From contig JALWSA010000015.1 of the NCBI GenBank assembly GCA_026993805.1, positions 1 to 64,000 on the forward strand: 64,000 nt of DNA. The letters are read 5' to 3'. Positions 40,300 through 44,021 of this stretch are shown here, one piece after another. The notes under the pieces were generated by a model that was not told where the DNA came from, ran no database searches, and was given only the letters and a program-made list of their open reading frames with translations. This DNA is from Thermotogaceae bacterium (lineage in GTDB: Bacteria > Thermotogota > Thermotogae > Thermotogales > Thermotogaceae). The translations under genes and the position numbers were made by a program. The first letter of the stretch is position 1, and every line of letters begins with the position of its first letter.

Positions 40300-40632
40300 A
40301 TGACGGCTGCTCTACTGATTATTCTCATAGGCTTCATAGGAACCGCCACACTGAAAAATGTAATAAAAAAGATAATCGCCCTTGACATAATGAACGTGGG
40401 TATCGTTATGCTATTTGTAACTGTAAGCTCGAAAAAGGGAAGTCTCCCACCAGTGATAATTTCAGGAAAGGCCGGTGTCACTTATTCCGATCCCATACCA
40501 CAAGCTGTCATAATAACCGCCATAGTGATTGGGTTTTCTATACTGACGCTATCCACAGTTCTTGCAACGATGCTTGCCGACAGAAAAAAGAAGGTAAACG
40601 TGGACGAATTCGAAAGGATGATGGAAGAGTGA
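40300..40632 (+). CDS. mrpC: Mrp-type Na+/H+ antiporter subunit C (NuoK-like)
   Basis: 110 residues, three transmembrane helices. 'DPIPQAVIITAIVIGFSILTL' is the MrpC/NuoK-like signature (core 'PIPQAVIITAIVIG'). The N-terminal helix is shorter than usual. It is the first gene of the cluster and overlaps the next by 4 bases. Confidence 0.9.
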   Translation: MTAALLIILIGFIGTATLKNVIKKIIALDIMNVGIVMLFVTVSSKKGSLPPVIISGKAGVTYSDPIPQAVIITAIVIGFSILTLSTVLATMLADRKKKVNVDEFERMMEE

Positions 40633-41945
40633 GAATCTACGAACCGCTGCTGATCCTCTTGGCGCTCTCCCTTTTTTCGATTTATAAAAAACTGAGTAAA
40701 TATATCCTAATCCTTACTCCGCTCACTCTCCTCATCTACTGGATGTTTGCAATGCCTCTGCGCTCAGAGATAGTCACGGGACCCTTTGGAATTTCCCTCT
40801 CCTTCACGCCAGAATCCAGACTCTTTCTTTTAGCCGCGGCCTCTGGATTCTCAATAGTCGCCATACATCTACTCGGTAAAAACCTTTCAAAAGTTTTCTC
40901 TTTCTCCTTCACCACTTCTTTGATAACGCTTTCCTTTCTGTTTCTATCAAAAGATCTTTTTAACATATATGTTTTGATGGAAGTCCTCTCCGTTCAAGCG
41001 GCGATAATGATCTTGGAAAAACTGGATGAAAGAAAACTATGGGCTTCGCTGAAATACCTGATCATAGGAAATGTCGGAGCTAACATATATTTAGTAGGTG
41101 CCGTTCTCTATTACATAAAAACCCAAACTTTCCAAGTAACACCGAATGCCGATGCTCCCAATGTAGCAACCGCTCTCATGCTAACAGGGCTTCTGATAAG
41201 AACCGGCGTTTTCGGATTTGGAATGTGGCTGCCACAGTTTCATTCGGCAGCAGAAAAAGAATTATCAGCTCTTCTATCTGGAGTCTTTGTCAACGGCGGA
41301 ATTTACGCACTCTTTCAAATATCAAACCTGGATTTTCCTCAAATGTGGAGATACCTTGCGCCCTTTCTCGCGATCGTTCCAGCCGTGATGTGCATCTTGA
41401 GCAGAAATCCCAAACGAACTCTTGCATGGAGCACCATGGCACATTTGACCTTTTTAAGCGGTTTTCCAACAGCTTCTCCAATCTATGCCCTGTCACACGG
41501 CCTTTCAAAAACTCTTCTATTTCTAAAGAGCGATCAAATGAAAGATAACGAAAGGGATCTCTCTACCTTCCTGCTGATTCTAATCGCAACACTTTCACTT
41601 GCAGGAATGCCAATGACGATCGGTGCTTTTTCTGAACATATTCTTCTGGAAAACACACAGCATCTGGGAAAACTCCTCATTCTTCTTTCAATATGGATCT
41701 CCTCGGGCGGAATAATGAAACACATATTAAGAGGAAAAATCCGAATTGGCTTTCACTACTCTGCTTTTCTGATCCCGATATTCCTATTTCCAAAATTCTC
41801 CATAGCAGGTTTGATAGGAATCTCCGTCGCGTTACTCCTGGGAGTGATACATACTAAAAAGGATGTATACTTGAAGATAGAAAGACTGGAAGAGAATCTT
41901 TTGATTATAAGCGGGGCGCTGGCGGTGATGATATGGCTATTCTAA
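40629..41945 (+). CDS. mrpD: Mrp/Mbh antiporter-like subunit D (NuoN/MrpD family)
   Basis: 438 residues, about a dozen hydrophobic helices, shorter than the 490 of usual MrpD. Conserved Glu118 in 'VLMEVLS' (the TM5 Glu) is present. In the channel helix the pattern 'LLIRTGVFGFGMWLPQFHSAAEKELSALLSGVFVNGG' (cores 'LLIRTG' and 'GVFVNGG') has Arg191 and Asn222 where Lys residues are typical, so ion conduction may differ. It starts with GTG in a GTGA overlap. It is the only large antiporter subunit in the cluster. Confidence 0.88.
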   Translation: MRIYEPLLILLALSLFSIYKKLSKYILILTPLTLLIYWMFAMPLRSEIVTGPFGISLSFTPESRLFLLAAASGFSIVAIHLLGKNLSKVFSFSFTTSLITLSFLFLSKDLFNIYVLMEVLSVQAAIMILEKLDERKLWASLKYLIIGNVGANIYLVGAVLYYIKTQTFQVTPNADAPNVATALMLTGLLIRTGVFGFGMWLPQFHSAAEKELSALLSGVFVNGGIYALFQISNLDFPQMWRYLAPFLAIVPAVMCILSRNPKRTLAWSTMAHLTFLSGFPTASPIYALSHGLSKTLLFLKSDQMKDNERDLSTFLLILIATLSLAGMPMTIGAFSEHILLENTQHLGKLLILLSIWISSGGIMKHILRGKIRIGFHYSAFLIPIFLFPKFSIAGLIGISVALLLGVIHTKKDVYLKIERLEENLLIISGALAVMIWLF

Positions 41946-42280
41946 GTGGGGTCGTTGGTTATGCGATATTTTACATGCTGAGTAAAATGCCCATACTTTC
42001 CATAGTCGCTGGAGCGTATTCAATAATGCTTCACTACATGATCCATCCTTCTTGGAGAAAGATCGGAACTCTCTTCATCAGCCTGATATTTCATTTCCCG
42101 CTCGCAATAATACAATCGTTTATAGCTCCTTTCCACAGATTCGAAACCTTTGAAATTGCCGAATGCCAGGATAAAAACTCCCTGATAAAAACCCTTTCCA
42201 TAACGCTTACTCCTCTAAGCGTTGTTTTCTTGAAGGAAGATAACAGGCTCCACATCCACAAGGTGGTGCGTCCATCGTGA
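41933..42280 (+). CDS. mrpE: Mrp antiporter subunit E
   Basis: 115 residues. Two or three N-terminal helices are followed by a cytoplasmic ferredoxin-like tail with 'TLSITLTPLSVVFLKEDNRLHIHKV' (core 'ITLTPLSVV...LHIHKV'), the MrpE hallmark 'TP.t......H'. It overlaps mrpD by 13 bases and mrpF by 4. Confidence 0.85.
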   Translation: MAILSGVVGYAIFYMLSKMPILSIVAGAYSIMLHYMIHPSWRKIGTLFISLIFHFPLAIIQSFIAPFHRFETFEIAECQDKNSLIKTLSITLTPLSVVFLKEDNRLHIHKVVRPS

Positions 42281-42516
42281 TGTATGTATTTTTAATTCCT
42301 CTTGTTATAACACTTCTAATATCTCTGAAAAGAAATATCTGGAATAAGGCTCTCTCACTTTCATCTTTGGGAATCAAAGTAGGGGTTTTGATCGCTTTAG
42401 TAGCTTATGAAAAACGTCTGGAATATCTTTTAGACGTATCTGTTCTCTACATAATGGCAAGCGGGGCAGGAATAATGCTGCTTCTGCACCTGATCTTAAG
42501 GAGTGACCTCGAATGA
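42277..42516 (+). CDS. mrpF: Mrp antiporter subunit F
   Basis: 79 residues, three helices. 'YLLDVSVLYIMASGAGIMLLLHLI' corresponds to the MrpF C-terminal 'DvAivyall.f' segment with the conserved Asp. GTG 42277 or ATG 42280 may be used. It overlaps mrpE and mrpG by 4 bases each. Confidence 0.82.
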   Translation: MMYVFLIPLVITLLISLKRNIWNKALSLSSLGIKVGVLIALVAYEKRLEYLLDVSVLYIMASGAGIMLLLHLILRSDLE

Positions 42517-42776
42517 TAGGCCGTATTCTCATCACGGTTGGAATTCTTTTCATGATATTGGGAAGTCTATTAACCCTGATAGAGACCAAATTCTCGAAAA
42601 AGCTTCACTGGATAGGAATATCCGATACGATAGGAGCTTCACTCGTCTTCATAGGAATGGGGGTAAACGGTTTTGGAACCCTCAAAGCTACACTGGCGTT
42701 CTTGTTTATAATCCTCTGGGGACCGAGCCTGACTCATACATTGGCAAGGGCTTTTCTGTCGAGGTTAGAAAAATGA
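42513..42776 (+). CDS. mrpG: Mrp antiporter subunit G
   Basis: 87 residues, three helices; 'LHWIGISDTIGASLVFIGMG' and 'LFIILWGPSLTHTLARAF' fit MrpG/PhaG ('R..a....D..G..l...G', 'P...H.lara'). It overlaps the DUF4040-fusion gene by 4 bases (ATGA). Confidence 0.85.
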   Translation: MIGRILITVGILFMILGSLLTLIETKFSKKLHWIGISDTIGASLVFIGMGVNGFGTLKATLAFLFIILWGPSLTHTLARAFLSRLEK

Positions 42777-43414
42777 GAGAGATCTTGGGAATTGGGATGG
42801 TCACGATAGCGCTTGCTACTCTTTTTCAAAAGAGCGTTTTACGCGCAGTAATGTTGAGGCTCGTTCTGAGCATATTGGCGGTCGCACTGTACACTGTCTA
42901 CATGGCACCAGATGTGGGATTAGCAGAAGCGATGATAGGCGCACTGCTGATGACCTATGTCTATATGCTATTAATCAAAAGTCCAAGATCCATTATCGTC
43001 GGCGTGGTTCCTTTGAAGATACTTTTCGAAAAACATCCATGGGGATTCGATGGCATAGAGTATGTTTTGCTCGAAAGATTCGCGAAATCACACGGGTATT
43101 CTCTTGAGATAATCGAGTACGAAAATGAAAGCGACCTTTTGGAAAGTCTCAAAAACGGAGAAATCGACGCAGCTTGTGGGCCGGTCCACACCCAGGGAAT
43201 ACAGATAATACCAACAAAGATTTTCGTCTTAGAAGACGGACATGAAAAAGATTTTTTGAGGATGAGCGAAGAGGATTCAAAGCGCATCGTGAATGTAAAA
43301 GAAACTTTTTATACCATCTTGATGTCGGAACATGTGGAAGAGTTTCAAGACTTTTTGGAAAACCTCAAAAGGAGTGGGGAGTTCGATGAAATCATCTATA
43401 AGTACGCACGTTAA
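42773..43414 (+). CDS. MbhD/DUF4040 membrane segment fused to a shortened solute-binding-like domain
   Basis: 213 residues. Residues 1-68 are three hydrophobic helices with 'VYMAPDVGLAEAMIGALLMTY' (core 'APDVGLAEA'), the MbhD/C-terminal-MrpA signature. Residues 74-213 read like a type-3 extracellular solute-binding domain: 'IIVGVVPLKILFEKHPWGFDGIEYVLLERFAKSHGYSLEIIEYE' (cores 'VGVVPL', 'GFDGIEYVLLERFA') then 'LKNGEIDAACGP', and a final 'FLENLKRSGEFDEIIYKYAR' (core 'KRSGEFDEIIYKY'). The second lobe of a normal binding protein is largely missing. I know of no such subunit in characterised Mrp complexes. It overlaps the MrpB gene by 29 bases. Confidence 0.75.
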   Translation: MREILGIGMVTIALATLFQKSVLRAVMLRLVLSILAVALYTVYMAPDVGLAEAMIGALLMTYVYMLLIKSPRSIIVGVVPLKILFEKHPWGFDGIEYVLLERFAKSHGYSLEIIEYENESDLLESLKNGEIDAACGPVHTQGIQIIPTKIFVLEDGHEKDFLRMSEEDSKRIVNVKETFYTILMSEHVEEFQDFLENLKRSGEFDEIIYKYAR

Positions 43415-44021
43415 ATTCGCGGCATTGATCATTACATCCGCCCTTGTATTCTCAGCCGTGCTTCCATGGCTCCACACAAGCGATAGAACAGCTTTAGATA
43501 TATTAAAAGAAACCGGGTATTCGAATACCACAGCCACCATATACCTGAAGAGCAGAATGCTCGATACCGTATTCGAGGTACTTGTCTTCTCTCTCGTCAT
43601 AATCGGACTGAGCACACATCATAAATCCAAGGGAAGATACCACGAGGACATAAAAGACGATGTCTTTACAAACATCGCCAAGATAGCCTCATTCTTTCTC
43701 ATGATAGCCTCACTATACCTCGCACTCACAGGGCACTTATTCCCAGGTGGGGGATTCACGGCTGGGGTCACTGGAGGAACTGCCATCCTTCTAATGGCCA
43801 TATCCTCGGGTTTCGACAAGTTCGAAAGTAATTTCAAAAGGTTAAAGGTAGACGTTTTAGAAAAGATTCTCATATCCGCGATAATAATATCTTCCCTTAT
43901 AGAATTCAGGTTACCTTCACAGAGGTTTATAATCCTTCAGAATGTGTTGATATACTTCAAAGTCATGGCAGGCACTTGGATAGTGCTTTACAACTTGATC
44001 AAATACAGGGGGATAGTGTGA
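43386..44021 (+). CDS. mrpB: MbhE + MrpB/MbhF antiporter subunit
   Basis: 211 residues. The first half has an N-terminal helix and a helix after 'TIYLKSRMLDTVFEVLVFSLVI' (core 'SRMLDTVFEV'), the MbhE-like 'dyR..DT.gE' motif. The second half has 'TGHLFPGGGFTAGVTGG', the MrpB/MbhF 'G...PGGGF' signature, with four helices. ATG 43386 with GGAGTGGGGAG upstream is used; the frame itself opens 54 bases earlier. Its stop shares one base with the tmk start. Confidence 0.88.
   Translation: MKSSISTHVKFAALIITSALVFSAVLPWLHTSDRTALDILKETGYSNTTATIYLKSRMLDTVFEVLVFSLVIIGLSTHHKSKGRYHEDIKDDVFTNIAKIASFFLMIASLYLALTGHLFPGGGFTAGVTGGTAILLMAISSGFDKFESNFKRLKVDVLEKILISAIIISSLIEFRLPSQRFIILQNVLIYFKVMAGTWIVLYNLIKYRGIV

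Follow-up and report, generated by a model that had tools for sequence, protein, structure and literature searches.

An MbhD-type membrane subunit fused to a predicted single lobe of a solute-binding protein in an Mrp-type antiporter cluster of Thermotogota

In the 64,000-nucleotide stretch of Thermotogaceae DNA that we analyzed (hereafter, the window), one gene of an Mrp-type cluster encodes an MbhD/DUF4040 membrane segment joined to a tail that is predicted to fold as lobe 1 of a family-3 solute-binding protein (SBP), lobe 2 being absent. Taken by themselves, this identity and this fold are close to certain. We assign a probability of about 50% to a complete mechanism in which the tail would form a cytosolic cap or docking lobe at the Na+ entry of an antiporter that lacks MrpA-N. 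The gene and its two parts are placed as follows:

42773 to 43414, forward strand: fusion of MbhD and SBP lobe 1, 213 aa, intact (Pfam, AlphaFold2 (AF2), Foldseek)
42773 to 42979, forward strand: MbhD/DUF4040 part, residues 1-69 (Pfam E=1.6e-12, AF2 helices, alignment to 6cfw_D)
42986 to 43414, forward strand: SBP family-3 lobe 1 tail, residues 72-213 (AF2, Foldseek, SBP alignment)

The 42773-43414 reading frame translates without a stop over all 213 residues. Pfam entry PF13244 (MbhD) matches residues 8-69 (E=1.6e-12), the very helices that the initial annotation had recognized, and AF2 places three helices in this part (residues 2-17, 22-42 and 46-69). Three transmembrane helices, the motif APDVAxxEA and a conserved Glu make the protein a member of the MbhD/MrpA-C family; its gene also lies where such a gene is expected, in an Mrp/Mbh cluster, adjoining MrpG and MbhE/MnhB. 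For the tail, the match to PF00497 (SBP_bac_3; E=6.1e-6) only just exceeds the curated cut-off (26.5 versus 26.4 bits) and covers residues 91-138 only; matches to ALS_ss_C and W02B3_4_N (E 0.02-0.05) were below cut-off and were dropped. A sequence search of the PDB matched residues 186-212 to the last helix of GlnPQ SBD2 (6h30, E=8e-4) and, weakly, residues 75-139 to GluR0 Slr1257; from this C-terminal and this N-terminal match it follows that the protein has both halves of the discontinuous lobe 1 and lacks lobe 2.

The AF2 model, computed from an alignment of the window protein and 17 relatives (pTM 0.73), has an alpha/beta domain that begins at residue 72, after the three helices, with a tail pLDDT of about 84-97 per ten-residue block. 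Foldseek returned 157 PDB matches for this model with an E-value of 0.001 or lower. The top match (E=6.6e-6) is 6xks, in which domain A of the LAO-binding protein stands alone, and complete amino-acid SBPs come next; TM-scores stay low (about 0.4-0.55), since the membrane helices count towards the query and the missing lobe towards full-length targets. We regard lobe 1 of an SBP as a confident prediction for the fold of the tail, in agreement with the earlier proposal of a type-3 SBP domain missing the greater part of its second lobe; a PBP-like fold is what prediction and fold search of the 213-residue protein returned. Like the tail, the best structural match, 6xks, is a single-lobe SBP, but it is a piece cut from a two-lobed protein, whereas the lone lobe of the fusion is natural. 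With family-3 SBPs such as LAO, GlnBP and T. maritima ArgBP the fusion has in common the lobe 1 fold and both of its sequence halves; unlike them, it would be joined to the inner side of a membrane subunit, has lobe 2 deleted and has lost the canonical binding residues.

These losses were traced in an alignment of the window protein and Bipolaricaulota members (see below) with intact SBPs from the window's own genome. In the window protein a short linker stands in place of lobe 2 and bears a conserved ‘D-F/L-L/V-R’; ‘KDFLR’ is the sole lobe-2 remnant, D160 falling at the position of the lobe-2 Asp, and the two-lobed ligand cleft that characterizes SBP family 3 is accordingly absent. The amino-acid-binding Arg after strand 4 is missing from the window sequence and partly kept in Bipolaricaulota, and the canonical binding aromatic is also absent from the window protein. 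A Cys-Gly pair, C135-G136 (window 43175-43180), is invariant in the tail across one alignment (A2), at a ligand-contact position of SBPs; it is missing from one Thermotogota family (L019-L027). Two other loci of this genome, L117 (G000:C21) and L116 (G000:C64), put SBP family 3 to other unusual uses; between them they encode a protein with two SBPs in tandem and another in which an SBP is joined to GAF-like and HD-GYP parts (domain names by inspection).

Mrp complexes are regarded as kin of the ancestral membrane core of complex I and of membrane-bound hydrogenases. The other genes of the window cluster are:

40300 to 40632, forward strand: MrpC/MbhG-like subunit (Oxidored_q2 E=2e-17; NCBIfam Mrp subunit C over cut-off)
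40629 to 41945, forward strand: MrpD-like antiporter subunit, the only one in the cluster (Proton_antipo_M E=6.7e-22)
41933 to 42280, forward strand: MrpE, diverged (same-position homologues match E queries and MNHE)
42277 to 42516, forward strand: MrpF-like subunit, diverged (MrpF_PhaF E=0.054; position, phmmer in relatives)
42513 to 42776, forward strand: MrpG subunit (PhaG_MnhG_YufB E=5.5e-11)
43386 to 44021, forward strand: MbhE-like N-terminus and MnhB/MrpB subunit (MnhB E=7.9e-16)

The genes run in the order C, D, E, F, G, fusion, B and include a single antiporter-like subunit; the 115-aa protein in the MrpE position (41933-42280) has no Pfam match of its own. As had been claimed, the fusion is tied into the operon on both sides: its ATG at 42773 forms an ATGA overlap with MrpG, whose stop extends to 42776, and its end overlaps the MnhB gene (ATG at 43386) by 29 bases. 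The NuoL-like MrpA-N expected of a canonical group 1 Mrp (CPA3) is absent, the sole Proton_antipo_M protein having 438 aa. Neither the cluster nor its flanks, which carry speD/speE-like and thymidylate-kinase-like genes (by inspection), contain genes for redox subunits; the cluster is a stand-alone Mrp-type arm without MrpA-N. A second cluster in the same genome, on contig C9, has NuoH-like, 49-kDa-like and iron-sulfur genes (by inspection), and the MbhD of this redox-type cluster is a tail-less protein of 81 aa; most Thermotogota genomes have matches of this MbhD size (80-87 aa) alongside the fusion. That the window encodes an Mrp arm without the redox arm of MBH would suit a tail that is an interaction module only, that is, a scaffold for some soluble partner, such as an enzyme linked to ferredoxin or NAD, in place of the missing hydrophilic arm, and conserved residues G94, D132, C135, G136, T148, D160 and Y180 would lie near the former inter-lobe face; no candidate partner gene was found in the operon, however, and we consider this explanation decidedly improbable.

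The window fusion protein is matched in 39 of 61 relatives, well above chance, and all 39 encode it in uninterrupted frames with zero internal stops. A frameshift or mis-assembly is thereby ruled out; the initial annotation, which had thought an assembly error unlikely, was right to treat this as a real gene. An NCBIfam profile for PRK07377, NF005630, matches 67/103 Thermotogota genomes, a minority of them over the MbhD part alone. Of the Thermotogota loci inspected, virtually every one has the order E-F-G-fusion; D precedes it and B follows it in most, wherever the stretch reaches far enough and the two were detected. The fusion is therefore phylum-wide and in one frame, not a pair of separate genes, and some genera are without it. 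Among Thermotoga-like genomes, six close pairs with computable, unsaturated dS gave a dN/dS for the tail of 0.04-0.12; the tail is therefore maintained by selection. This value disfavors the idea that the tail is a vestigial passenger, an ancient SBP fusion that erodes neutrally and is functionless in Thermotogota. Such an idea could draw upon the range of fusion lengths among relatives, from 270 to 174 aa, and upon an SBP signal that is weaker in Cyanobacteria, but a compact and confidently predicted fold, the lack of internal stops in 39 matching relatives and retention across the phylum also speak against it, and we hold it to be very improbable. Short, diverged cyanobacterial tails and the Thermotogota genera that are without the fusion do mean that the tail is not obviously a strict functional necessity.

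A single-protein query scan of the genome contigs gave no match, but an alignment-based profile scan of an 84,980-species collection did recover relatives; the only pattern used there was the APDVA motif, and many matches are tail-less MbhD/MrpA. Among the matches listed, the fusion occurs in Bipolaricaulota/Acetothermia, Cyanobacteria, Desulfoferrobacter and further Thermotogota. It recurs in three bacterial phyla, and in Bipolaricaulota it is two-lobed. Most Bipolaricaulota fusions have 254-270 aa; their profile (A4) aligns along whole SBPs (GlnPQ SBDs, E=1.6e-16), and for one member, L048, the modelled structure matches complete amino-acid SBPs across the two lobes (4ymx, E=5e-15, TMt 0.76). 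In alignment with intact SBPs their lobe 2 is shortened yet recognizable, most members keep the lobe-2 Asp (V/T-D-L-L), and about half or fewer keep the binding-position Arg. L048 is matched in 71 of 100 Bipolaricaulota genomes, and over 50 of these matches extend well past the MbhD part. Given these two-lobed forms and the lobe-2 remnant in the window protein, the one-lobed form is most simply read as derived from a two-lobed SBP domain. We dropped the notion that the tail is always paired with single-MrpD clusters: in Bipolaricaulota it also occurs in several clusters with a pair of antiporter-type subunits, and its link to single-MrpD complexes is thus not strict.

Some database labels and neighboring architectures deserve comment. 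A metagenome-assembled genome (MAG) labelled ‘Thermotoga sp.’ (L053, DYGJ01000003.1) carries a fusion almost identical to that of Candidatus Bipolaricaulis (L052, L130), and its label looks wrong; another MAG, titled Caldisericota (L055, JAADIW010000130.1), has a two-lobed fusion and groups with Bipolaricaulota in the genome collection. Mrp clusters of a clostridial genome (L054:5971-6489) and of a Latescibacterota genome (L060:5971-6534) encode MbhD proteins whose tails are of other kinds and roughly 100 aa long, and a second MbhD-like gene lies nearby; further MbhD tails may exist.

Cyanobacterial members are smaller (174-194 aa), with shorter tails in which the SBP is hardly recognizable; in one member scanned singly, Pfam calls no SBP in the tail. 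Judged by gene order, Anabaena mrpA/all1838, mutants of which are reportedly sensitive to Na+ and alkali, is plausibly one of these cyanobacterial fusion genes. NCBIfam groups such proteins as PRK07377.1 (NF005627-NF005630), a cyanobacterial ‘hypothetical protein’ in Mrp clusters of the order E-F-G-X-B; 43 of 117 Cyanobacteria genomes match, 40 of them over the curated cut-off, and PRK07377 models bridge these members to Thermotogota (L032, E=4e-28). PRK07377.1 is homologous to the window protein over the MbhD part and the first 60-70 residues of the tail (window residues 13-139, E=5.5e-13); the window protein scores far below the equivalog cut-off (49.1 versus 149 bits), and is thus homologous but not an equivalog, the cyanobacterial tails being shorter and diverged relative to its own. 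According to a review (PMC5703873), the cyanobacterial cluster is mrpCD1D2EFGAB and an mrpA mutant is impaired in growth and photosynthesis; this mutant may involve a PRK07377-type protein.

On which side of the membrane does the tail lie? In 27 Thermotogota proteins, the mean number of Lys plus Arg is 1.6 in loop 1, 0.04 in loop 2 and 2.8 after helix 3. E52 of the fusion aligns with E69 of MbhD (6cfw_D) which, in the published Mrp structure paper (PMC7419157), is the homologue of MrpA E706. That paper describes a tunnel that leads from E706 via a Na+ cavity to the cytoplasm; H719, C-terminal of E706, coordinates a lipid headgroup in this cavity, and mutations of H719 and P721 alter the Km for Na+. 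From the positive-inside charge and the homology to MrpA, the tail would be cytoplasmic, at the inner end of the helix that bears the Na+-site Glu (E52). We conclude that it probably faces the cytoplasm and that its most likely starting point is where the Na+ path opens to the cytoplasm. SBPs are normally extracytoplasmic, and an outward-facing tail that binds a solute or another subunit, as a sensor or scavenger lobe, could be envisaged; against this are the strong positive-inside signal before helix 2 and after helix 3, with none between helices 2 and 3, and a homologous MrpA helix that, in PMC7419157, runs towards the cytoplasm-connected Na+ cavity. We judge an outward-facing tail to be extremely improbable.

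The MnhB/MrpB protein contains a D-x3-E (SRMLDTVFEV; translation inspected) like the MrpA pair D792/E796, which PMC7419157 describes as the Na+-exit pair. The putative Na+(K+)/H+ antiporter thus has both E52 and D-x3-E as Na+-site residues. MbhD of MBH and MBS (6cfw_D, 6u8y_D) and the C-terminal part of MrpA share with the fusion the three-helix fold, APDVAxxEA, the equivalence of E52, E69 and E706, and the operon neighbors; MbhD stops soon after helix 3 whereas MrpA continues into its MbhE part, and an SBP tail is found in neither.

The initial annotation had suggested a ligand-sensing domain. Developed further, this would be a cytosolic ligand-gated antiporter, in which the tail binds a small molecule (an amino acid or similar) and gates Na+/H+ exchange, the single lobe of Thermotogota still binding. 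Bipolaricaulota keep both lobes, most with the lobe-2 Asp and several with an Arg at the SBP position; C135-G136 is invariant in alignment A2 where SBPs contact ligand; and weak ligand binding by one isolated lobe is possible for type II SBPs (PMC10601554). Yet a lone lobe is unable to close on a ligand, about half or fewer of the Bipolaricaulota members keep the binding Arg, and no precedent came to light in which an SBP fold fused to an antiporter senses amino acids in the cytoplasm. We view ligand gating as unlikely, and we are a little more skeptical of its general form, that in Mrp complexes of Bipolaricaulota, Thermotogota (one-lobed) and Cyanobacteria an inward SBP-derived receptor gates Na+ entry according to an internal metabolite. 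In the window species a classical ligand sensor is unlikely because lobe 2, the canonical binding Arg and the aromatic are gone; here the earlier suggestion does not hold up well, and the tail also probably faces the cytoplasm.

Our preferred reading is instead that of a cap. The fusion would serve a Na+ (or K+)/H+ antiporter of the Mrp type, stand-alone and lacking the NuoL-like MrpA-N, as its MbhD/MrpA-C subunit in the Na+ pathway, with lobe 1 joined to the cytoplasmic end of helix 3. Deletion of lobe 2 from a complete SBP domain, still seen in Bipolaricaulota, would have left the one-lobed tail, which would most likely sit at the cytosolic face, over the Na+ entry cavity that lies between an MrpA-C-like and an MrpF-like subunit. 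In this position it would act as a docking or cap domain that stabilizes the complex or tunes Na+ access, and not as a classical Venus-flytrap sensor; we infer such a cap or regulatory role from the site at which the tail is attached.

A limited search of the open-access literature (subscription papers being outside its scope) found no description of an SBP-derived domain in an Mrp/MbhD subunit, and in the accessible portion of PMC7419157 MrpA-C is nowhere said to carry a regulatory domain. The novelty claimed initially stands to this extent; the fusion is not unique, as NCBIfam already groups its cyanobacterial relatives. Its parts are known, and the SBP-tailed variant of MbhD is apparently undescribed in the open literature. 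The series of fusions from 270 to 174 aa offers a natural reduction of a two-lobed to a one-lobed binding protein, which has otherwise been studied with isolated fragments (PMC10601554). A conserved SBP-derived domain joined to the inner end of the Na+-site helix, in three phyla, would open the control of Na+ entry to a direct test by deletion of the tail.
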